Under the pieces are notes generated by a model, which worked only from the letters and a program-made list of their open reading frames with translations, was not told where the DNA came from and searched no databases. The translations under genes were made by a program, and so were the position numbers. From assembly GCF_020037015.1 (NCBI RefSeq), contig NZ_JAIQDE010000025.1:1-64000 (forward strand): a DNA stretch of 64,000 nt, in the 5' to 3' direction. Below are positions 8,333-48,169 of the stretch, piece by piece (position 1 is the first letter of the stretch; each line of letters starts with the position of its first letter). The stretch comes from Corallococcus sp. AS-1-6 (lineage in GTDB: Bacteria; Myxococcota; Myxococcia; Myxococcales; Myxococcaceae).

Positions 8333-9541
8333 TCAGAACACCGTGCCGTCACTGCGGATGCGGATGGGCGGCACGCCCCCGGGGCGCAGCTCCGCCGCCA
8401 CCCGGCGCCCCGCCGTCCACGTGCCGCCCTGGAGCACCTTGGCCAGCGGCAGCTCCTCCGCGCTCAATTCCAGACGCCCTCGCACCAGCGCGGCCACGCG
8501 GTCCAGGAGCGCCACCGTCAGCGCCCGCCACTCCACGATGGGCGGGTCACCCGGGCCGTAGACCTCCGCCGTCAGGCGCGGGTCCTGCGGCACCAGCACG
8601 CCCAGGTCCACGAAGAGGCCGCCGTTGCGGTACTCCGGCAGGCCGGTGAGCGCGTCCAGCTCCGTCACCGTCACGCCGGCCTCCGCCAGCGGCTCCACCA
8701 GCGAGTACGCCAGCCACTGGGACAACTTGTGGAAGGGCACCAGCGCGTCCGCGCTCCCCGGCGGCCCGAGCGCCGGATGCGGCCACACGTCCCCCAGGTT
8801 CACGCCGTCCACCGTCGTGCGCCCCGGCCAGATGGGGCCCAGCACCTCCAGCACCGTGCCCAGCACCTCCGCCGCCCGCACGCTGCGGCGGTGCGCGGCC
8901 AGCATGTCGAACAGCGTGCCCGGCCTGGGCAGCACGCGCGACAGCGCCTGCATCAGGTGCAGCCGCCCCTCCACGCCCAGCAGGGGGTTGGACTCCGACA
9001 CCTGGAAGCCGCGCTCCAACTGCTCGCGCGTCATGCGGCCCAGCGCCTCCGCGTCCGCGCGCAGCGGCCGGTCCGGGTCCGACGAGAAGCCGCCCGCCAT
9101 GAACATGCGCAGCGACGCCACCGCCAGCCCCTCCGAGCGCACGTAGGACGCGCCCCCGGGCTCCTGGTAGCGCCACGTGGGGCCGCTGCCCGCGTCCAGG
9201 AGCACGCTCACCACGCCCAGGTCCACCTTCGCCCGGGCCCGCTCCTCCGGCGGCAGCGGGGCCAGCCTCGCCTCCAACTGCGCGAGCCGGGGCACGCCTC
9301 CCGCGTCGAAGTGCCTCCAGCGGCTGTGCACCGGGATGTCCAGCCGGGGGTACGCCTCGTGCGTCACCGCCAGCACCCGGTCCACCACCGTGGGCAGCCG
9401 GGACGGCTCCACCCGGAAGTACTGCAGCCGGCCGGCGAGCCCCAGGTCCAGCACCTGGTGACAGCGCTCGCGGATGGCCGCCGGGCTGCGCAGCCACGCC
9501 ACCGTGGGGGACACCTCCTGCACCCGGCTCGCGTCAAGCAT
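8333..9541 (-). CDS. URC4/Urg3 family protein (DUF1688), uracil catabolism
   Basis: A 402-residue protein that I recognise as the DUF1688 (URC4/Urg3) family, one of the two defining proteins of the URC route of pyrimidine breakdown first described in Lachancea kluyveri. Conserved-looking stretches are LEARLAPLPPEERARAKVDL, DVGSGPTW-like text (LLDAGSGPTWRYQEPGG), RSEGLAVASLRMFMAGGFSS and LSQWLAYSLVEPLAEAGVTV. The exact reaction is not known to me. The start ATG overlaps the stop of urc1 (ATGCTTGA), which implies tight coupling. Bacterial homologues usually travel with urc1, as here. Confidence 0.85.
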   Translation of the reverse strand: MLDASRVQEVSPTVAWLRSPAAIRERCHQVLDLGLAGRLQYFRVEPSRLPTVVDRVLAVTHEAYPRLDIPVHSRWRHFDAGGVPRLAQLEARLAPLPPEERARAKVDLGVVSVLLDAGSGPTWRYQEPGGASYVRSEGLAVASLRMFMAGGFSSDPDRPLRADAEALGRMTREQLERGFQVSESNPLLGVEGRLHLMQALSRVLPRPGTLFDMLAAHRRSVRAAEVLGTVLEVLGPIWPGRTTVDGVNLGDVWPHPALGPPGSADALVPFHKLSQWLAYSLVEPLAEAGVTVTELDALTGLPEYRNGGLFVDLGVLVPQDPRLTAEVYGPGDPPIVEWRALTVALLDRVAALVRGRLELSAEELPLAKVLQGGTWTAGRRVAAELRPGGVPPIRIRSDGTVF

Positions 9542-10787
9542 CGAGGTCCCGTCCCTTCACCTGCGCCAGCTCCCCCGCGTCCGCCACCGGCCCGCGCGTG
9601 AAGTAGCCCGCGGCCTTCTTCGCCTCCATCTCCACCTTCGCGTCGGCGGGGATGAGCCCGTCCGGGATGGGCACCCGTTCGAGGATTTCAATGCCCGAGC
9701 GCACGATGGCGTCGTGCTTCATGTCGCTCATGGAGATGAAGCGGTGGATGCGCGTGATGCCCAGCCAGTGCAGCACGTCCGGCATCAGCTCCTGGAAGCG
9801 CATGTCCTGCACGCCCGCCACGCACTCCGTGCGGTGGAAGTACGTGGCGGCGGAGTCCCCGCCCTCCTGGCGCTTGCGCGCGTTGTAGACCAGGAACTTG
9901 GTCACCTCGCCCAGCGCGCGGCCCTCCTTGCGGTGGTAGACGATGAGCCCCACCCCGCCCTGCTGCGCCATCCGCACGCATTCTTCAATGCCGTGCACCA
10001 GGTAGGGCCGGCAGGTGCAGATGTCGCTGCCGAAGACGTCCGAGCCGTTGCACTCGTCATGCACGCGCGCCGCCAGCGGCACGTCCCGGTCCGCGAGCGC
10101 GGTGATGTCGCCAAACACATACAGCGACAGCCCGCCGATGGGCGGCAGGAAGACGTGCAGGTCCGGGCGGGTGATGAGCTCCGGGTACATGCCTCCGGTG
10201 TGCTCGAAGAGGCCGCGGCGCAGCGCGCCCTCCGTGAGGCCGAAGCGCTCGGCGATGCCGGGCAGGTACCAGACGGGCTCCACGGCGGCCTTCACGACCT
10301 TCACGTCGCCATTGGCCGCGACCAGGTCCCCGTCCACCTTGAGGCGCCCGGCGGTGATGGCCTCGCGCACCTCCGGCATGTTGATGTGGGCCCGGGTGAC
10401 GGCGATGGTGGGCCGGTAGTCCACGCCCTGCTCGGCGTAGGCGCGGAACACCTGCGAGGCCACGGCGCCCCAGGGGTCCAGCGACACGATGCGCTTGGGG
10501 TCACCCCACGCCGGATAGGGCCCCACCTGCGCCGCGGGCGAGGTGTTGGTCAGGTCCGCCTTGTGGTCCTGCTGCAGCTTGCCCGCGGACACCGCCAGCG
10601 CGCGGTAGATGGAGTACGCGCCCGAGTGTGTGCCGATGACGTTCCGGTTCGCGGGGTCGGAGAGCGTGGCCACCACCGGGCCCCGGCGCAGCGGCTCCGA
10701 CTCGCCCCAGCGCAGGGGGACTCCGGGGGCCTGACCATCGGGATGGGACGTGAGACGGATGTGATTGACCGGCTTCTTGTCAGCCAT
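9534..10787 (-). CDS. URC1, GTP cyclohydrolase II-like uracil catabolism enzyme
   Basis: A 417-residue homologue of RibA (GTP cyclohydrolase II). The C-terminal half has the zinc-binding block HDECNGSDVFGSDICTCRPY and the Arg/Glu block YHRKEGRALGEVTKFLVYN. Ordinary RibA is about 200 residues. The long N-terminal domain (THSGAYSIYRALAVSAGKLQ, SLDPWGAVASQVF) marks the URC1 subfamily, which acts on a uracil nucleotide rather than making riboflavin. I chose ATG at 10787 because GGAGG lies 8 bases upstream; a GTG three codons earlier overlaps that site. The gene follows mmsA by 69 bp and overlaps urc4. Confidence 0.85.
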   Translation of the reverse strand: MADKKPVNHIRLTSHPDGQAPGVPLRWGESEPLRRGPVVATLSDPANRNVIGTHSGAYSIYRALAVSAGKLQQDHKADLTNTSPAAQVGPYPAWGDPKRIVSLDPWGAVASQVFRAYAEQGVDYRPTIAVTRAHINMPEVREAITAGRLKVDGDLVAANGDVKVVKAAVEPVWYLPGIAERFGLTEGALRRGLFEHTGGMYPELITRPDLHVFLPPIGGLSLYVFGDITALADRDVPLAARVHDECNGSDVFGSDICTCRPYLVHGIEECVRMAQQGGVGLIVYHRKEGRALGEVTKFLVYNARKRQEGGDSAATYFHRTECVAGVQDMRFQELMPDVLHWLGITRIHRFISMSDMKHDAIVRSGIEILERVPIPDGLIPADAKVEMEAKKAAGYFTRGPVADAGELAQVKGRDLDA

Positions 10788-10856
10788 GGGGTGCACCCTC
10801 CTCGCGGGGCGCGTGGGAAAAGACAGATGTCTGGGAATGGGGCGAAGCGGCTTGGG

Positions 10857-12347
10857 TCAGCTCATCCAGGAGCCGTCGGTGCGCGCGGACCACTTGCGCG
10901 TCACCTTCTTGAGCTGGCTCCAGAAGTCGAGGCTCGACGGTCCCGTCACGTCCCCGTGGCCGAACTTCGACTCGCCCGTGCCGCCGAAGGAGAAGGGCTC
11001 ACGCGGCACCGGAACGCCCACGTTCACGCCCACCATGCCGGCCCTGGCGCCCTCCACCACCGTCTGCGCCACCGCGCCGCTGGTGGTGAAGATGGACGCC
11101 GCGTTGCCATAGGGCGACGCGTTCTCCACCGCGAGCGCCGCCGACAGCGTGGGCACCCGCACGATGGACAGCACCGGGCCGAACAGCTCGCGCCGCGCGG
11201 CCTCCATGTCCGGGCGTACGTGGTCCAGCACCGTGGGTCCCAGCCAGTGGCCGTTCGCGTAGGCCTCGCCCGCGGGCCGCTTGCCGCGCCCGTCCAGGAG
11301 CAACCGCGCCCCGTCCGCCTGGGCCCTGGCGATGGCCGTCTCCAGCCGGTCCACCGCGCCCCGGTCGATGAGCGCGCCCATGCCCGGGCCGACCTCCAGG
11401 CGTGAGGCCCGCCGGAGGATGTCGTCCACCAGCGGCTGCACGTCCCCCACCGCGAGCATCACGCTGGCCGCCATGCAGCGCTGGCCCGCGCAGCCGGTGA
11501 ACGAGTCCACCACCGCCTGCGGCGTGAGCTCCGGGTCCGCGTCCGGCACGACGATGAGGTGGTTCTTCGCGCCTCCGAGCGCCAGCACGCGTTTGCCGTG
11601 GCGGCTGCCCTCCACGTAGACGTGCCTCGCGACGGGGGACGAGCCCACGAAGGCCAGGGCCTTCACGTCCGGGTGCTCCAACAGCGCGTCCACCGCGGGC
11701 TTCGCGCCATGCACCACGGAGAAGACGCCCGGGGGATAGCCCGCCTCCACCATCAACTCGCCCATGGCGGTCGCGGTGAGCGGCACCTTCTCCGAGGGCT
11801 TGAGGATGAAGGCGTTGCCCACCGTGACGGCGATGGGGAACAGCCACAGGGGCACCATCGCGGGGAAGTTGAACGGCGTGATGCCGGCGACGACGCCCAG
11901 GGGCTCGCGGCGGTATTCGCAGGTGACGCCCCGGCTCACCTCCAGGTGCGCGCCGCTGTCCAGGTTCTGCAGCGACAAGGCGAAATCACAGACCTCCATC
12001 CCCTTGAGCAGGCCCGCGCGGCCCTCCGCCACCGTCTTGCCGGACTCGCTCGCGGCCAGGTGCGCGAGCCTTTCCAGGTGCGTCTCCAGGAGCGCGCGGA
12101 AGCGTTGCAGGAATTGGGTGCGCTCGCGCAGCGGGGTGACGCGCCAGCCTTGCGCGGCGGCCTTCGCCGCCTCCACGGCCTGGGCGACACCGGAGGCGGT
12201 CGTCAGCGGCACCCGGCCGATGAGCGCGCCGGTATAGGGACTGCGGACCTCCTGCGCGGACGCTCCGGCGGGAGAGACCCACTCTCCGCCCACGAGGTTG
12301 CGACAAGAGACGACGCTCTCGGGTAACCGAACAAAGGACACGCGCAC
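10857..12347 (-). CDS. mmsA: CoA-acylating (methyl)malonate-semialdehyde dehydrogenase
   Basis: A 496-residue aldehyde dehydrogenase. The catalytic block is FTGCAGQRCMAASVML (about residue 285), and GGAKNHLIVVPDAD stands where hydrolytic family members carry the general-base Glu; both features mark the methylmalonate-semialdehyde dehydrogenase branch, which uses CoA. Other blocks are GVVAGITPFNFPAMVPLWLF and FGPVLSIVRV. In this operon the likely substrate is malonate semialdehyde from the three-carbon remnant of uracil, giving acetyl-CoA (inference). The start is GTG; two GTGs (12347 and 12341) are possible after a GGGGGG tract. It is the first gene of the URC operon. Confidence 0.85.
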   Translation of the reverse strand: MRVSFVRLPESVVSCRNLVGGEWVSPAGASAQEVRSPYTGALIGRVPLTTASGVAQAVEAAKAAAQGWRVTPLRERTQFLQRFRALLETHLERLAHLAASESGKTVAEGRAGLLKGMEVCDFALSLQNLDSGAHLEVSRGVTCEYRREPLGVVAGITPFNFPAMVPLWLFPIAVTVGNAFILKPSEKVPLTATAMGELMVEAGYPPGVFSVVHGAKPAVDALLEHPDVKALAFVGSSPVARHVYVEGSRHGKRVLALGGAKNHLIVVPDADPELTPQAVVDSFTGCAGQRCMAASVMLAVGDVQPLVDDILRRASRLEVGPGMGALIDRGAVDRLETAIARAQADGARLLLDGRGKRPAGEAYANGHWLGPTVLDHVRPDMEAARRELFGPVLSIVRVPTLSAALAVENASPYGNAASIFTTSGAVAQTVVEGARAGMVGVNVGVPVPREPFSFGGTGESKFGHGDVTGPSSLDFWSQLKKVTRKWSARTDGSWMS

Positions 12348-12521: not shown

Positions 12522-12962
12522 TCAGGCCTGGGAGAGCATCCGCTGGTGCCGCTCCGACAGCGCGGCGGGGTCCGTGAGGGTGCGCAGCTCCGCGATGGCG
12601 GTGGCGTCCTCGGTGTCCGGGTTGAGGCCGAGCGAGATGGCCTCCAGGTACAGCTCCAGCGACAGCAGGAAGCGCGAGTCGGCGGTGAGGGGGTCGCCCT
12701 GTTCGCGCATCAGCTCGCCGTCCTCGCGCACCAGCTTCGCGAGCATGCGCACGCGCGAGGCGGTGCCCAGCAGGCGCGAGGTGGACTCCGCGTCCGCGAG
12801 GGTGAGCGCGCCGTACTCCATGCCCAGCACGGAGAGGGCGGTGTCGTGGATGAGGGCGCGTGCTTCACCGTACCGCTTCTCCTTCCGGGCCTTGAGGATG
12901 CTGGCGATGGCGGCGACGAACTGCTCGACGGCGCGCTCGATGAAGTCCTTGCGGAGGGACAT
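12522..12962 (-). CDS. Small helical protein, DUF6483-like
   Basis: A 146-residue, all-helical, soluble-looking protein beginning MSLRKDFIERAVEQFVAAIA. The N-terminal 'DFIERxxEQF..A...IL' pattern and the later LALADAESTSRLLG-like helix recall DUF6483, but I am not sure. There is no signal peptide, membrane segment or catalytic motif. The ATG at 12962 is preferred over an upstream start because the extra 23 residues are low-complexity Gly/Pro/Ala. It stands alone between the URC operon and a divergent PilZ gene. Confidence 0.6.
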   Translation of the reverse strand: MSLRKDFIERAVEQFVAAIASILKARKEKRYGEARALIHDTALSVLGMEYGALTLADAESTSRLLGTASRVRMLAKLVREDGELMREQGDPLTADSRFLLSLELYLEAISLGLNPDTEDATAIAELRTLTDPAALSERHQRMLSQA

Positions 12963-13233
12963 GGGTTCCGCAGGGTAAGCCCGACCCGGGGCGGCCGCAC
13001 GTTTCCCACCCTGAGGGCACCCTCGTGTCACATGAAACCCAGGAGGTTTCTTGTTTTCAGTGCCTTGGAGGGAAGGAGGAGTGTCCGGCGGACGGACTCC
13101 GGGTCGTTCGAGGCGGCTGGAGGGATTGAACGACCCGACCCGAGGTCTGGTTGCGTATCCCTTTCAAGCGCGGATCCGCGGGAGACCGGGGTGATTCGCG
13201 CGCCCCCGACGTCATTCATCTGGAGAGTCCACC

Positions 13234-14973
13234 GTGGGAGCGCCTTTCGCTCGCGCACAGCCGCGTCCGTTGTCCGAGGCACCGGCCCTGGAATGGGAGC
13301 GCCGGTGGGACATCACCGACGCCGAGCGCATCCGCATCATCCTCGCCACCGCCGCCGCGCTGGGCTCGCCCGCCCTGCTGCGACGGGGAGGCTCGGCGTC
13401 GCCGCTGCGGCTGGAGACGCTGGAGCTGGAAGGCGGAGCGCTCCACTGGTCCGGGCTGACGGTGGATCCGGGCGCTGACGCGTGGGAGGTGGAGGTGTCT
13501 GGCCATGGCTGCGTCTACCGGATGCTCCTGTCCGGCGAGACCGCGGAGCCGGGGACGTGGGTGACGCCGCAGCCGCGTCAGTTGATCCAGGTGCGCCGCC
13601 GGGCACATCGGCGTGCTCCCGCGCCGCCGGACCTGCGCGTGCGCCTGCCGCTGCCGGGATGGCTGGGCCGGGAGCGCGACGCGCTGGAGGTGTCCCCGCA
13701 CGGGATGGCGCTGCGGCTGGGCGCCGGGGAACGCCTTCCGCCGGGCCGGGTGCTCCAGCCCATCGAGCTGCGCACGGCGGCGGGTGACGCCCTGTCGCTG
13801 CGCGGGGAGGTGCGCCATGTGTCGGACCGCGCCGATGGGGAGCTTCTGTGCGGGCTGCTGGTGACGCCGCTGACCCCCGGGGACGCGGAGCAATGGCAGA
13901 CGCTGGTGGCGCGGGCCCTTCACCCGACGACGTGCACCGATGGGGCGCGGGTGGAGGAGCAGTGGCGGCTGTTCATCGACTCCGGCTACTTCAACCTGGC
14001 GGGCAGGGCCGCGGAGGACTTCGAGTCGCGGCGGCGGAGCTTCGTCGAGCTGGGCCGCCGGGCCGGTTCGATGGGCTCGGTCCTCACCGGGGTGGTGTGG
14101 CCTTCCGAGCGCGGCGTGGAGGCGACGCTCTCCGCGATGAAGCCCTACCGCTCCATGTGGATGGTGCACCAGTTGGCGCGGCGCCAGGACGCCACGCGGT
14201 TCGAGCGCCTCAAGGGCCAGATGCTGCGCGAGCTGTACGTGCACTGCGTGGAGCACGCGCAGCGGGACAGCGGGTTCCGGTGGCTCGCGGCGTACATCGA
14301 ATCGACCGTGCCCTTCACGTACCGCTCGCACGTCGGCTTCGCCGAGCGCATGGCCGCGACGGGCCGGACGCTGATGCTGCCGATGCGAATGATTGACGTC
14401 GGGTGTGGCCCTTCCCCTGCCCCGCTGACGCCGGGTCTGGAGTTGGGGCCCGCGACGGAGGCGGAGCGGCGGCTGCTGGTGGAGCGGATCGCCCTCACCC
14501 GGCCCGCCTGCTACGCCGAGGCGTTGGACCTGCGCCTGGAGACGCTGGACCTGCGGGACGCGACGCGGGCCTGGCAGGCGGTGGGCCTGGAGCGTGAGCG
14601 GCACCTGCTGGTCGCTCGCGAGGGCGCGAAGCCGGTGGCGGTGGCCGTCCTGGAGTCGGGGGCTCCCGGGACCAATCCCTTCGGGTTGCTGGACTCCGTG
14701 CGGGTGTTCGCGCTGTCCGCCCGGGCGCGGCGGGCCTATCCGGCGCTGATGGAGGGGGCTCGCCGCTGGTTCGCGGAGCGGGGACGCGATGGGTTCACCT
14801 TCCTGGCCGAGGAGGCTGGCGACGTGGAGGCGGCAGGCCTGCATGACGCGGCCCCGGACGCGAAGCCCTTCCTGTGGCTCATCCCCGCGGACCTCGCTCC
14901 CGAGTTCCTGGAGCACATCCACGAGCAGACGGCTCCCCGTCCGCTCTCCCACCCCCAGAAGGAGCTGTCATGA
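13234..14973 (+). CDS. PilZ domain and acyltransferase-like fusion protein
   Basis: A 579-residue cytoplasmic protein. Residues about 15-110 form a YcgR-N-like beta domain. A PilZ domain follows (about 110-230), with an Arg-rich motif VRRRAHRRAP that fits RxxxR and EVSPHGMAL, close to the (D/N)xSxxG motif but with Glu first. The rest (about 240-570) has DSGYFNLAGRAAEDFESRRR, MWMVHQLARRQDATRFERLK and a late HLLVAREGAKPVAVAVLESG segment, which read like an N-acyltransferase (GNAT or FeeM-like) fold. A c-di-GMP-controlled acyl transfer is a plausible inference. The start is GTG with GGAGAG upstream. The stop overlaps the next gene (ATGA), so the two proteins probably work together. Confidence 0.7.
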   Translation: MGAPFARAQPRPLSEAPALEWERRWDITDAERIRIILATAAALGSPALLRRGGSASPLRLETLELEGGALHWSGLTVDPGADAWEVEVSGHGCVYRMLLSGETAEPGTWVTPQPRQLIQVRRRAHRRAPAPPDLRVRLPLPGWLGRERDALEVSPHGMALRLGAGERLPPGRVLQPIELRTAAGDALSLRGEVRHVSDRADGELLCGLLVTPLTPGDAEQWQTLVARALHPTTCTDGARVEEQWRLFIDSGYFNLAGRAAEDFESRRRSFVELGRRAGSMGSVLTGVVWPSERGVEATLSAMKPYRSMWMVHQLARRQDATRFERLKGQMLRELYVHCVEHAQRDSGFRWLAAYIESTVPFTYRSHVGFAERMAATGRTLMLPMRMIDVGCGPSPAPLTPGLELGPATEAERRLLVERIALTRPACYAEALDLRLETLDLRDATRAWQAVGLERERHLLVAREGAKPVAVAVLESGAPGTNPFGLLDSVRVFALSARARRAYPALMEGARRWFAERGRDGFTFLAEEAGDVEAAGLHDAAPDAKPFLWLIPADLAPEFLEHIHEQTAPRPLSHPQKELS

Positions 14974-15716
14974 GCCTCATCCAGACGCAGTACCTGCCGC
15001 ACGCCCAGCCCACCCGCGCCCGGCTGGAGACGGACCCCGTCGTGCGCACGCTCCTGTCGCCGGACATCGCGCCGGACCTGATGGCGCGCTTCCTCATCGA
15101 GTGGTCCGCCCGGGGCGCGTACATGACCGAGCCCGTGGACGGATGGATCCGCGGCGCCGGTGAGCGCTGCACCGCGCTGGGCCAGGAGAAGGTGGGCCGG
15201 CAGCTCATCACCCACGCGAAGCACGAGGCCGGCCATCACCTGATGACCCTCCAGGACGCGCGTGTGCTGACGGCTCAGTGGAACGCGAGCCACTCGCAGC
15301 AATTGGACGCGGAGGCGCTGGTCGCCCAGGCCCCCACGGCCGCCATGCGCGAGTACCGGCAGGTGCACGACGAGGCCATCACCGGTGACCTGCCGCTGGG
15401 TCAGGCCGCCATCGAGTACGAGGTGGGCTACCTGGCCGTCGTGCTGGTGCCGCGCATCCTGGCGCGCGTGCGTGAGGTGCTGGGACAGGGGACGCTGGAC
15501 ACCCTCACCTTCCTGCGCGAGCACGCGGAGGTGGACGTGGGCCACACCGCGCTCAACGAGCGGATGATGGAGGGGCTCTTGAGCACCCATCCCGAGGAGG
15601 GCCGGCGGCTGGCGTCGTTCGGCTCGCGCGGGCTGGACTGCTACCTGCGCTTCCTGGACGACTGCATGGAGGCGGCGCGCCGGAGCCTGGGCGGCGTCAC
15701 GGCTGCGGCGGCCTGA
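14970..15716 (+). CDS. Heme-oxygenase-like (HDO/TenA fold) iron enzyme candidate
   Basis: A 248-residue all-helical protein. Possible metal ligands lie on separate helices: Glu in FLIEWSARGAYMTEP (about 44), HAKHEAGHHLMTLQD (Glu86, His89/90), AAIEYEVGYLA (Glu149) and EHAEVDVGHTALNE (Glu184/Asp189/His192). This arrangement resembles iron-containing redox enzymes of the heme-oxygenase-like diiron oxidase group or the TenA/PqqC fold. Reaction unknown; relatives cleave or hydroxylate fatty-acid or amino-acid-derived small molecules. The ATG has AAGGAG upstream and overlaps the stop of the PilZ-acyltransferase gene by four bases. A longer upstream start is rejected. Confidence 0.7.
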   Translation: MSLIQTQYLPHAQPTRARLETDPVVRTLLSPDIAPDLMARFLIEWSARGAYMTEPVDGWIRGAGERCTALGQEKVGRQLITHAKHEAGHHLMTLQDARVLTAQWNASHSQQLDAEALVAQAPTAAMREYRQVHDEAITGDLPLGQAAIEYEVGYLAVVLVPRILARVREVLGQGTLDTLTFLREHAEVDVGHTALNERMMEGLLSTHPEEGRRLASFGSRGLDCYLRFLDDCMEAARRSLGGVTAAAA

Positions 15717-15722
15717 GAGGAC

Positions 15723-15746
15723 TCACGGAGCCGCGTGGCTCCGTGA
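15723..15746. terminator. Hairpin between convergent genes
   Basis: Perfect 10-bp stem TCACGGAGCC/GGCTCCGTGA with a GCGT loop. It includes the stop codon and last codons of the kinase-phosphatase gene and lies 6 bp past the stop of the HDO-like gene. There is no T-tract, so termination is likely only in part or through Rho. Confidence 0.5.
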
Positions 15747-16949
15747 CTTCCAGTACTCGCGCTGCGCGGGCACGGAGAGGAGTTCACGCTCCGGATAGCG
15801 CAGCGCGGTCAGCTTGCCTCCGAACACACAGCCGGTGTCCACGCAGACGGTGTTGTTCACCCATTCGGATTCCGGCACGGCGGTGTGGCCGTACACGACC
15901 GTCGCCTGCCCCTGGTAGCCGCGGGCCCAGTCGGCCCGCACCGGCAGGCCGTAGGCATCCGCCTCGCCGGTGGTCTCTCCGTAGAGGGCGAAGTCGCGCA
16001 CCTCCGGGGTGTCCCGGCCGTGCATGGACTCCTTCAGGCCCGCGTGCGCTACCACCAGGTGGCCGCCGTCCAGGACGTAGTGCGGTGAGCGGGCTTCGAT
16101 GAAGTCGGCGACCGCCTGGGAGAATCCGGGCGGCTCACGTTCCAGTTGCTCCAGCGTCATCGCGAGCCCGCGTCCCGCGCGCACGTCCTTGCCTCGCAGC
16201 TTCTTGAGCAGCTTGAACTCGTGATTGCCGGGCACGCACAGCGCGGTGCCCGCATCCACCATCCCCATCACCAGGCGCAGCACGTCCGTCACGCGCGGCC
16301 CCCGGTCGATGAGGTCGCCCAGGAACACGACCTTGCGCCCGTGGGGCGTGCCCACGTCGAAGCCGGGGCCTCCGTCCGCTCTCGGCGCGACCGTGTAGCC
16401 CAGCTCCGTCAGCAGGGCCTTCAGTTCGTCGAAGCAGCCGTGGATGTCTCCGATGATGTCGAAGGGGCCGTGCTCGTCGTGGCGGTGGCTCGGCAGGGGG
16501 CGGTGCTCGAAGGCCACCGCGCCCACCGTCTCCGGCGTGAGTATGTGCACGTGCCGGATGCCTTCCTTCGTCAGCCCCTTCAGCGCGTTCTGGAGCTGCT
16601 GCACCTGGTTGCGCAGGGCCTTGGGACTGGCCGACCCGGAGCGCGTGCGGTTTCGCTCCAGGCAGAGCGCCTCCGGCGTGTCCATGGCCACCGCGACCAG
16701 GGCCACGTGGTGCTCGCGTGCCAGGGTCACGTAGTGACGGCGGGACTCGGCGCTGAGCGGGACGCCGTCGATGACGGTGAGCGTGCCCTTCTCGAGCCTT
16801 CGCGCCACCTCGTCGTGGAGCTTCGTTTCGTTGCCCGTGCCGGGCAGCACGTCCTCTGGGAGGAAGTGCGCGTTCGCGAGGGTGGACTTGCCGGAGCCGG
16901 AGGGGCCCAGGAGCAACACGAGCGACTGCTCGGGGATGGGGATCATCAT
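15723..16949 (-). CDS. Polynucleotide kinase-phosphatase-like protein (Pnkp without ligase)
   Basis: A 408-residue two-domain protein. The N-terminal kinase domain (1-160) has the P-loop LLLGPSGSGKSTLAN and an ERNRTRSG segment. The C-terminal calcineurin-like phosphatase (from about 165) has GDIHGCFDE, GDLIDRGPR, GNHE and VVYGHTAVPE. This is the architecture of the kinase and phosphatase parts of bacterial Pnkp, which heals broken RNA ends (5' kinase, 2',3' phosphatase). The adenylyltransferase/ligase part of full-length Pnkp (about 850 residues) is absent, as is a neighbouring Hen1. A role in nucleic-acid end healing or general phosphatase signalling is inferred. ATGATG start; the second ATG is also possible. 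Confidence 0.8.
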   Translation of the reverse strand: MMIPIPEQSLVLLLGPSGSGKSTLANAHFLPEDVLPGTGNETKLHDEVARRLEKGTLTVIDGVPLSAESRRHYVTLAREHHVALVAVAMDTPEALCLERNRTRSGSASPKALRNQVQQLQNALKGLTKEGIRHVHILTPETVGAVAFEHRPLPSHRHDEHGPFDIIGDIHGCFDELKALLTELGYTVAPRADGGPGFDVGTPHGRKVVFLGDLIDRGPRVTDVLRLVMGMVDAGTALCVPGNHEFKLLKKLRGKDVRAGRGLAMTLEQLEREPPGFSQAVADFIEARSPHYVLDGGHLVVAHAGLKESMHGRDTPEVRDFALYGETTGEADAYGLPVRADWARGYQGQATVVYGHTAVPESEWVNNTVCVDTGCVFGGKLTALRYPERELLSVPAQREYWKSRSHAAP

Positions 16950-47236: not shown

Positions 47237-48169
47237 ATGCCCCCGTCCCCCACCCCCTCCCGGGAAGCCGAACTGGCGCGCGCCGAAGCCGACATGGCCC
47301 GGCTGGAAGCACAGCTCGCCGAACAGGTGGCCCGCGCCGCCGCTGAAGCCGCCGCGTTGAGCGAGCGGCTCGTCCGCATGCGCCAGGCCCTGGCCCGGCC
47401 GGAGCATGCCGGGGACTCGCGCCTGTCCCAGTGGGCCCTGCGCCTGGAGGACACCGAGTCCCCCGAGCCGTCCCCGGAGCTCGCGCGCCTGCGGGAGAAG
47501 GCCCTGGACGCGCGCGAGGCCGCGCTGGACACGCGCCGCCAGGCCGGGCTGGACCTCCAGTCCGCGCTGCGCGTGCAGCAGGAGGACGCCGCCCGGGTGG
47601 AGAAGGCGCTGACGTCCGCCGAGTCCGACCTGAAGCGCGTGGAGGACGCCGCCAAGGCCCGAGCGGAGGCCGAGGCGAAGGCCCGCCGCGCGGCGGAGGC
47701 GGAGACCCAGAAGGTCGTCCCGCCCGCGGCCCTGCGGCCGTCCCAGGAGAAGCTGCCGACCGAGGCGCCGACGCGCGCGGAGCGGCTCCCGGCGCGCGCG
47801 CCCGTGGCCGTCACTCCGGCGAAGAGCGACGCGCGCAAGGCGGGCCGGGTGCGGATGCACACGACCATCGACACGCGCAGTGACTCCAACTTCTTCACCG
47901 GCTTCTCGATGGACATCAGCGAGGGCGGCATCTTCATCGCCACGGTGGAGGCGGTGCCGCGCGGCACGCCGGTGGAGCTGGACTTCACGCTGCCGGGGGG
48001 CCGGCCGCTGACGGTGAACGGCGTGGTGCGCTGGGCGCGCGACGGCAACGACCGCACCCCGGACCTGATGCCGGGCGTGGGCGTGCAGTTCACCACGCTG
48101 CCGCCGGAGGTGGCGCACGCCATCTCGTCGTTCGTGGCGACGCGCGACCCGATGTTCTACCCGGACTGA
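47237..48169 (+). CDS. Coiled-coil and PilZ-like protein (TIGR02266 type)
   Basis: A 310-residue cytoplasmic protein. Residues 1-150 are a long Ala/Glu/Arg coiled coil. A linker leads to a PilZ-like domain at about 210-305: RVRMHTTIDTRSDSNFFTGF, MDISEGGIFIATVEAVPRG (the DxSxxG motif), then VNGVVRWARDG. This resembles TIGR02266, a PilZ-like family typical of myxobacteria, in which the RxxxR motif is usually lost, so c-di-GMP binding is uncertain. It follows rtcB by 64 bp and could be cotranscribed. Confidence 0.8.
   Translation: MPPSPTPSREAELARAEADMARLEAQLAEQVARAAAEAAALSERLVRMRQALARPEHAGDSRLSQWALRLEDTESPEPSPELARLREKALDAREAALDTRRQAGLDLQSALRVQQEDAARVEKALTSAESDLKRVEDAAKARAEAEAKARRAAEAETQKVVPPAALRPSQEKLPTEAPTRAERLPARAPVAVTPAKSDARKAGRVRMHTTIDTRSDSNFFTGFSMDISEGGIFIATVEAVPRGTPVELDFTLPGGRPLTVNGVVRWARDGNDRTPDLMPGVGVQFTTLPPEVAHAISSFVATRDPMFYPD

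Follow-up and report, generated by a model that had tools for sequence, protein, structure and literature searches.

A PixB-related PilZ–GNAT fold protein paired with a candidate heme-oxygenase-like diiron oxidase in Corallococcus and other myxobacteria

PilZ proteins that carry an acetyltransferase domain are known from PixB (MXAN_2604) of Myxococcus xanthus. PixB binds cyclic di-GMP (c-di-GMP) in vitro and regulates reversals and development through its acetyltransferase domain, which is sufficient for motility control, with all domains being needed for development (Kuzmich et al., 2021; PMC8316039, a study that also covers 23 other PilZ deletions). The Discussion of that paper leaves the substrate open, as a protein or another molecule. 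Here we describe a two-gene locus of Corallococcus sp. AS-1-6 (genome size 9.5 Mb) that lies within positions 1 to 64,000 of contig NZ_JAIQDE010000025.1, the whole stretch of DNA that was analysed and is referred to below as the window. Gene 1 encodes a PilZ protein with a C-terminal region of the Gcn5-related N-acetyltransferase (GNAT) type, and gene 2 encodes a candidate heme-oxygenase-like diiron oxidase (HDO). The closest named relatives are Corallococcus, the HDO being 93% identical in C. carmarthensis.

Other described systems share parts of this arrangement. The c-di-GMP receptors YcgR and MrkH consist, like the window protein, of a YcgR-N-like barrel followed by PilZ, but their outputs are flagellar-brake or DNA-binding functions, whereas the output half of the window protein has a GNAT-type fold. 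A double-GNAT architecture is shared with the human histidine acetyltransferase NAT16 (HisAT) and with N-myristoyltransferases, although identity to the window protein in the fold alignments is just 11–12%. HisAT N-acylates free histidine and also works with myristoyl- and palmitoyl-CoA; its acetyl-CoA-binding residues are located in the first GNAT domain, for which the window protein has no demonstrable equivalent, and in double GNATs only one domain remains active (PMC12219266). The reaction proposed below is analogous to that of the FeeM/TIGR03694 N-acyl amino acid synthases, but the window acyltransferase is a double GNAT, and no match to FeeM, Acetyltransf_5 or TIGR03694 was found in Pfam searches with 17 family members or in an NCBIfam search with the window protein. 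On the oxidase side, UndA, CADD, HrmI, BesC and PolF (reviewed in PMC13108848) have the fold and the 3-His/3-carboxylate ligand set in common with gene 2, which differs in belonging to a sequence-distinct subfamily with an acyltransferase partner.

Both PixB and the window protein have PilZ with an RxxxR motif followed by a C-terminal GNAT-type region, and a profile (A4) built without M. xanthus PixB recovered PixB with an E value of 1.3e-114, consistent with homology over the PilZ and GNAT region. That the window gene is PixB itself could nevertheless be ruled out. The residues mutated in PixB are R121 and R331 (PMC8316039). Among the three family members of M. xanthus strain AM003, one (L194) has RxxxR exactly at these positions, and its counterpart in AS-1-6 is a gene elsewhere in the genome (C22:542954) whose RxxxR motifs lie at R122 and R333. 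This gene is followed by two others on its strand, in line with the paper's description of PixB. PixB is reported to have two PilZ domains and to lack the Ser of the second motif (PMC8316039), while the window protein has one RxxxR-bearing PilZ domain, a YcgR-N-like N-terminal barrel and an HDO partner; the PixB orthologue in this genome has no HDO neighbour. Since R121 and R331 are found in another family member, the window protein is a diverged PixB relative without the first PilZ domain. It is 16–22% identical to ten PixB-like or wider relatives (L130–L139). These double-GNAT proteins are spread through the phylum, two of them (L135 and L136) belonging to two other genera of the window's family and the rest to different families; by eye, several have two PilZ-like stretches and some a receiver-like start.

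Pairing of the acyltransferase and HDO genes in myxobacteria

An HDO alignment was compared with 84,980 species genomes in a pattern-limited scan, seeded by two short peptide patterns (72 stretches matched). The scan yielded 45 HDO loci, 38 of which were of the myxobacterial type, with several genomes giving two loci. An acyltransferase gene was located directly upstream of the HDO gene, on the same strand, in all 38 myxobacterial-type loci, among them L149, in which just a C-terminal acyltransferase remnant is left, and L148, in which the acyltransferase frame is split. In a separate set of 30 loci, whose species may partly be shared with the 38, a long upstream acyltransferase match was present in 29 (in two frames in L016), and the remaining locus, L018, carries an acyltransferase remnant. 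Because adjacency is kept in 38 of 38 loci, the pairing is not due to chance, and it can be regarded as well supported. The initial annotation had proposed a search for conserved pairing in other genomes as a check, and the two genes are far from being rarely found together.

Two side observations concern these loci. The remnant or split copies of the acyltransferase (L149, L148, L018 and L016) all lie beside an intact HDO gene and may represent either assembly errors or decay; the named genomes with such a copy are Corallococcus sp. CA053C and C. interemptor. The records of L155 and L179 are titled Comamonas sp. KCTC 72670, yet these are typical myxobacterial loci, and the titles may be labelling errors.

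A survey of the order at E ≤ 0.001 gave a nested distribution. Across its 145 genomes, HDO was detected in 58 and the acyltransferase in 66, and all 58 HDO genomes were among the 66. At the level of the phylum, HDO was found in 58 of 179 genomes and 7 of 83 genera, all within the window's own family among the matches listed, and the acyltransferase in 75 of 195 genomes and 19 of 90 genera. One partial HDO locus at a contig end (L191), with no readable gene upstream, is acidobacterial; a survey of that phylum detected HDO in 1 of 396 genomes, the same one.

The acyltransferase–HDO pair exists as two paralogous versions. The AS-1-6 genome encodes four PilZ-acyltransferases: copy 1, in the window, and copy 2 (C1:101545) each have an HDO neighbour, while copy 3 (C17:71314) and the fourth copy, which is the PixB counterpart introduced above and was found with a wider profile, have none. 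A search of the genome for HDO identified two places only, beside copies 1 and 2. M. xanthus strain AM003 carries one pair, of the copy 2 type (L180).

Divergence of the two partners is strongly correlated. Pairwise distances between acyltransferases and between HDOs gave a Mantel r of 0.921, with 0 of 2000 permutations as high (37 loci, L149 excluded), although this correlation is partly due to shared species history. The surroundings of the pair are less constant. Twelve loci, covering both copies, were read by eye; the flanks of copy 1 vary between genera, and no conserved third gene was seen for copy 1 in this reading. In three copy 2 loci from Corallococcus and Myxococcus (L158, L171 and L180; by eye), both flanking genes are shared and lie on the opposite strand, whereas the flanks differ in Archangium copy 2 loci. 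The convergent gene downstream of copy 2, also present in L069, is presumably FAD monooxygenase-like, judging from its sequence features. Of the 38 loci, 35 have PilZ with both RxxxR and DxSxxG; it is missing in L149, L153 and L155, the last two of which retain both acyltransferase and HDO. Given the variable flanks and these two loci, what is conserved as a unit is the acyltransferase together with HDO, and PilZ is a regulator that is usually present but can be dispensed with.

Predicted folds and conserved residues of the two proteins

The model of gene 1, computed from 30 aligned proteins (predicted local distance difference test (pLDDT) 88.7, predicted template modelling score (pTM) 0.88), contains an N-terminal barrel, a PilZ barrel and two consecutive GNAT domains. 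The N-terminal barrel matched YcgR-N (5y6h, Z 13.6). The PilZ half, with this barrel, matched MrkH (Z 15.9, 3.0 Å over 211 residues) and the c-di-GMP complexes of MrkH (Z 15.2), PP4397 (Z 14.3) and YcgR (Z 13.9). The acyltransferase half matched histidine acetyltransferase (9emd, Z 15.1, 4.2 Å over 267 residues; 9emp, the complex with N-myristoyl-histidine, Z 14.7), as well as VipF, a clavulanate-pathway tandem GNAT and N-myristoyltransferase. Foldseek gave agreeing matches. PilZ was the sole Pfam match in gene 1, and no NCBIfam family was found for the window protein; PDB sequence matches of the acyltransferase half to Rab and xanthan lyase (E 0.15–1.2) were rejected as chance hits, none being credible. 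Nine residues are invariant in a 17-protein family alignment, including R123, R127 and G157 in the PilZ domain and W309, R454, R456 and E474 in the acyltransferase half. The fusion of a PilZ sensor to an acyltransferase-like domain, suggested in the initial annotation, thus holds for PilZ by Pfam and for the double GNAT by predicted fold. Gene 1 encodes a GNAT fold protein, which on fold and conservation may be an active acyltransferase. Of the motifs that would serve c-di-GMP binding by the window copy, RxxxR is kept, and Asp of the second motif is replaced by Glu, a substitution that was pointed out at the outset and is present at the motif positions.

For gene 2, the model (pLDDT 91.6) is a heme-oxygenase-like bundle. 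The best 50 fold matches listed were solved heme-oxygenase-like proteins with Z scores of 16.7–22.3, including 3dde (Z 22.3, 2.9 Å over 225 residues), CADD (CT610; Z 20.0), UndA (Z 19.2) and HrmI (Z 18.9). The sole credible PDB sequence match was also 3dde (E 0.0044), which is titled a domain of unknown function. Against Pfam Haem_oxygenas_2 the protein scored 18.8 bits, below the cut-off of 28.9, a library score and not a structural feature; 16 of 18 HDO members matched this family at E ≤ 1 (best 1e-6). Conservation was read from two alignments, A1 (18 myxobacterial HDOs) and A7 (eight proteins: four cyanobacterial, one acidobacterial fragment and three already in A1). All six ligand candidates of a 3-His/3-carboxylate set, E86, H89, E149/E151, H185, D189 and H192, are conserved in both (Table 1), in agreement with the 3H/3C rule of HDOs, by which the ligands sit on three core helices (PMC13108848), and they are placed on or at the ends of the model helices 73–86, 89–107, 144–158, 180–188 and 190–206. 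Position 54 is Glu in 17 of 18 myxobacterial proteins and Asp in the four cyanobacterial ones. The spaced Glu/His ligands noted at the outset as resembling those of diiron oxidases are therefore retained in full, on a predicted HDO fold. We regard gene 2 as a candidate diiron HDO, which would hold a diiron cofactor and activate O2.

Both open reading frames, and the four-base overlap between them that the initial annotation had described, are present in the sequence (Table 1). The two genes are set apart as a unit by their neighbours, as the adjoining open reading frames at 12522–13031 and 15723–16949 are both on the minus strand.

Table 1. Coordinates of the two genes and of their domains and motifs in the window
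Feature	Position	Strand	Details
Gene 1, PilZ/double-GNAT protein	13234..14973	+	579 amino acids; GTG start, TGA stop at 14971–14973; the alignment of L048 begins at the same first residues
YcgR-N-like beta barrel, residues 23–121	13300..13596	+	Predicted from model and fold matches; limits by eye from model strands
PilZ domain, residues 122–226	13597..13911	+	Pfam PF07238; RxxxR, R123–R127; EVSPHG, 152–157
First GNAT domain, residues 237–390	13942..14403	+	Predicted from model and fold matches to double-GNAT enzymes; limits by eye
Second GNAT domain, residues 402–566	14437..14931	+	Predicted from model and fold matches; limits by eye
Gene 2, HDO candidate	14970..15716	+	248 amino acids; ATG start
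ATGA start/stop overlap of genes 1 and 2	14970..14973	+	Kept in all 12 named loci of the copy 1 type (L147–L156, L170, L182)
HDO ligand candidates E86-x2-H89	15225..15236	+	E and H in 18/18 (A1) and 8/8 (A7)
HDO ligand candidates E149/E151	15414..15422	+	18/18 (A1) and 8/8 (A7)
HDO ligand candidates H185-x3-D189-x2-H192	15522..15545	+	18/18 (A1) and 8/8 (A7)

Elsewhere in the window, the downstream neighbour on the minus strand (15723–16949) matches the kinase-phosphatase half of bacterial Pnkp (TIGR04075, 550 bits against a cut-off of 750), covering positions 1–420 of 851 without the remainder of the profile. Adjoining genes at 8333–12347 (minus strand) encode DUF1688, GTP cyclohydrolase II-like and aldehyde dehydrogenase proteins, a group that we take to be similar to the uracil catabolism (URC) cluster. 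A 310-residue protein encoded on the plus strand at 47237–48169 combines a C-terminal PilZ domain (58 bits) with a long, charged N-terminal region.

HDO homologues in cyanobacteria

Six cyanobacterial HDO loci (L184–L189, from Nostoc, Amazonocrinis and Symploca) were found at 36–38% identity, and in all six a single GNAT of a different kind is located directly upstream of HDO; two of these GNATs were searched against Pfam, and one scored above the cut-off. The clusters also encode an aromatic ammonia-lyase together with an acyl-CoA ligase. A DAHP synthase precedes the ammonia-lyase in five of six and lies downstream in L189. Further members vary between the loci: an O-methyltransferase, a halogenase-like protein, a tyrosinase-like protein, and chorismate mutase or prephenate dehydrogenase. 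Genes for tyrosinase-like and chorismate mutase-like proteins occur in L187 and L188, and a halogenase-like gene in L189. These assignments come from family searches on examples from L184, L188 and L189, and by eye for the other loci. The L184 ammonia-lyase matches solved enzymes over its full length (2nyn, 936 bits; Nostoc punctiforme phenylalanine ammonia-lyase 2nyf, 926 bits). As a side observation, the cluster, at about 0.3–12 kb of each locus, is a candidate phenylpropanoid-amide pathway and may represent a native role for these ammonia-lyases.

A survey of the Nostoc order detected HDO in 6 of 195 genomes, four of the loci being new (L204–L207). In L204, the HDO gene lies head to head with one for an exosortase-associated acyltransferase, which scores above the cut-offs of both TIGR03694 (227.7 against 111.95 bits) and Pfam FeeM (44.2 against 27 bits). 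An acyltransferase is thus a neighbour of HDO in 7 of 10 cyanobacterial loci, which fits a sequence of acylation followed by oxidation. The more distant HDOs of L205–L207 lie in a conserved cyanobacterial cluster with cupin-like, MAPEG-like, ThiF-like, beta-eliminating lyase, GST-like and PP-loop (N-acetyl sugar amidotransferase-like) genes, of which MAPEG, ThiF and GST were named by eye.

Homology between the myxobacterial and cyanobacterial acyltransferases is unsupported, with an hhalign probability of 0.1 for the Nostoc-cluster GNAT. The cyanobacterial clusters therefore speak for HDO and not for the window acyltransferase.

Possible function of the pair and alternative explanations

This HDO subfamily is found next to acyltransferases of several kinds. 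Most simply, these would make an N-acyl compound, which HDO would then oxidise. We propose that the two genes would act as one translationally coupled unit, gene 1 specifying a c-di-GMP-gated acyltransferase of the PixB family. Once c-di-GMP is bound by the PilZ/YcgR-N half, the double-GNAT half would acylate a small molecule on its amino group, with a thioester of CoA (or of a carrier) as the donor; an amino acid or an amine is the most likely acceptor. The O2-dependent diiron HDO would then oxidise the resulting N-acyl compound, and desaturation, decarboxylation and N-oxygenation are examples of such a reaction. The product might have its role, inside the cell or beyond it, in surface life or development, at times of rising c-di-GMP. 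Oxidised N-acyl amino acids do exist, as exemplified by N-acyl dehydrotyrosines such as the stieleriacines, for which a putative oxidoreductase has been proposed for one step (PMC7293339).

We consider a c-di-GMP-gated N-acyltransferase with an HDO that oxidises its product to be the best explanation of the locus, with a probability of roughly 0.5. It draws support from the predicted folds, the intact ligand set, the pairing, the correlated divergence and the PilZ motifs found in most relatives. That an acyl group is transferred, that an N-acyl amino acid results, that HDO oxidises it and, by analogy with PixB, that c-di-GMP gates the first step are inferences.

A number of observations weigh against this explanation. 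The PilZ domain of gene 1 is barely above the Pfam cut-off (24.5 against 22.5 bits), its second motif contains Glu instead of Asp, and gene 1 was not listed in a whole-genome PilZ search. Along with the two loci that have lost PilZ, there are four genomes (G100, G103, G107 and G108) in which the acyltransferase match does not start until the end of the PilZ domain or beyond it. Many proteins have a GNAT fold, and close Z values here are tied; none of the 17 aligned members had a Pfam match at E ≤ 1 in the C-terminal 345 residues. A canonical CoA loop (Q/R-x-x-G-x-G/A) is present in 1 of 30 proteins in the first GNAT domain and in 3 of 30 in the second, and with the motif intact in neither domain of the window protein, fold may not mean activity. 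The cyanobacterial comparison is also narrower than the number of loci implies: L184–L189 are close relatives (66–75% HDO identity to L184 among the four aligned) and so count as one case, L204 being another single case; the GNATs of these clusters have no profile similarity to the myxobacterial acyltransferase; and no GNAT was recognised in the L205–L207 clusters, where five L205 proteins were searched and the rest inspected by eye, so that these three loci lend the rule no support.

The weakness of the CoA loop raises the question of whether the double-GNAT half is catalytically dead and serves HDO as a c-di-GMP-responsive scaffold or substrate-binding subunit. Parallel divergence of acyltransferase and HDO would be expected of such a complex, but W309, R454, R456 and E474 are invariant over 17 proteins, which suggests that an active site has been kept, and the acetyltransferase domain of PixB is sufficient on its own for motility (PMC8316039), the orthologue in AS-1-6 having no HDO neighbour; we judge this explanation to be quite improbable. 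Also unlikely, though less so, is that gene 1 encodes a protein acetyltransferase gated by c-di-GMP, which PixB too may be. The targets might include HDO, whose separate small-molecule activity would be set by acetylation. The PixB substrate, left open between protein and other molecule (PMC8316039), allows for this, and the translational coupling implied by ATGA suits partners that form a complex; however, acetylation of proteins leaves unexplained why HDO homologues lie beside other GNATs in cyanobacterial small-molecule clusters, and both copy 3 and the PixB orthologue are without an HDO neighbour.

The gene order could also be incidental, with a merely co-transcribed acyltransferase and a stand-alone HDO, which might for instance make p-aminobenzoate in the manner of CADD or process fatty acids. 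CADD and UndA are among the closest folds (Z 20.0 and 19.2), and the H-x3-D-x2-H spacing of gene 2 is one that we take to be shared with CADD. Yet all 58 HDO genomes of the order also encode the acyltransferase, which is adjacent in the loci read, and presence in just 58 of 145 genomes would be odd for a vitamin step. To this explanation we give very little credence.

The preferred explanation, an N-acyltransferase gated by c-di-GMP and an HDO acting on its product, may be extended to a two-enzyme signalling module, in which c-di-GMP switches on the making of an N-acyl metabolite and a dedicated diiron oxidase yields the active compound. HDO would then be a reusable 'N-acyl-product oxidase' that has been coupled three times with different acyltransferases: the PilZ double GNAT, the GNAT of the phenylalanine ammonia-lyase clusters, and the exosortase-type acyltransferase. 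We put this forward as a tentative proposal that may well not hold.

The initial annotation had not recognised the locus as a described system. As PixB is already described as a c-di-GMP-binding PilZ-acetyltransferase (PMC8316039), the fusion is not new, and this part of the claim does not stand. No account of an HDO as a fixed partner, of the two paralogous versions of the pair or of the recurrence of this HDO with other acyltransferases was found in the open-licence papers searched. Searches of open-licence PubMed Central papers returned no report for PilZ with acyltransferase and heme oxygenase-like, for N-acyl amino acid synthase with heme oxygenase-like, or for heme oxygenase-like, diiron, N-acyltransferase and gene cluster together. 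Further searches listed related papers, none of them a direct report; in one, PMC11072679, a heme oxygenase and an N-acyl amino acid synthase of the exosortase type are named only as separate regulated genes.

The substrate of PixB is an open question in myxobacterial development (PMC8316039, Discussion), and its paralogues, having an oxidase as their constant partner, hint at what to look for, namely a small N-acylated molecule made under c-di-GMP control. The proposed function would also assign a class of substrates to an uncharacterised HDO subfamily and provide a setting for the cyanobacterial phenylalanine ammonia-lyases, whose close relatives have solved structures. Because M. xanthus is genetically tractable and carries the copy 2 pair, the idea is directly testable. 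If true, myxobacteria would make a chemical signal directly under the control of c-di-GMP during development.

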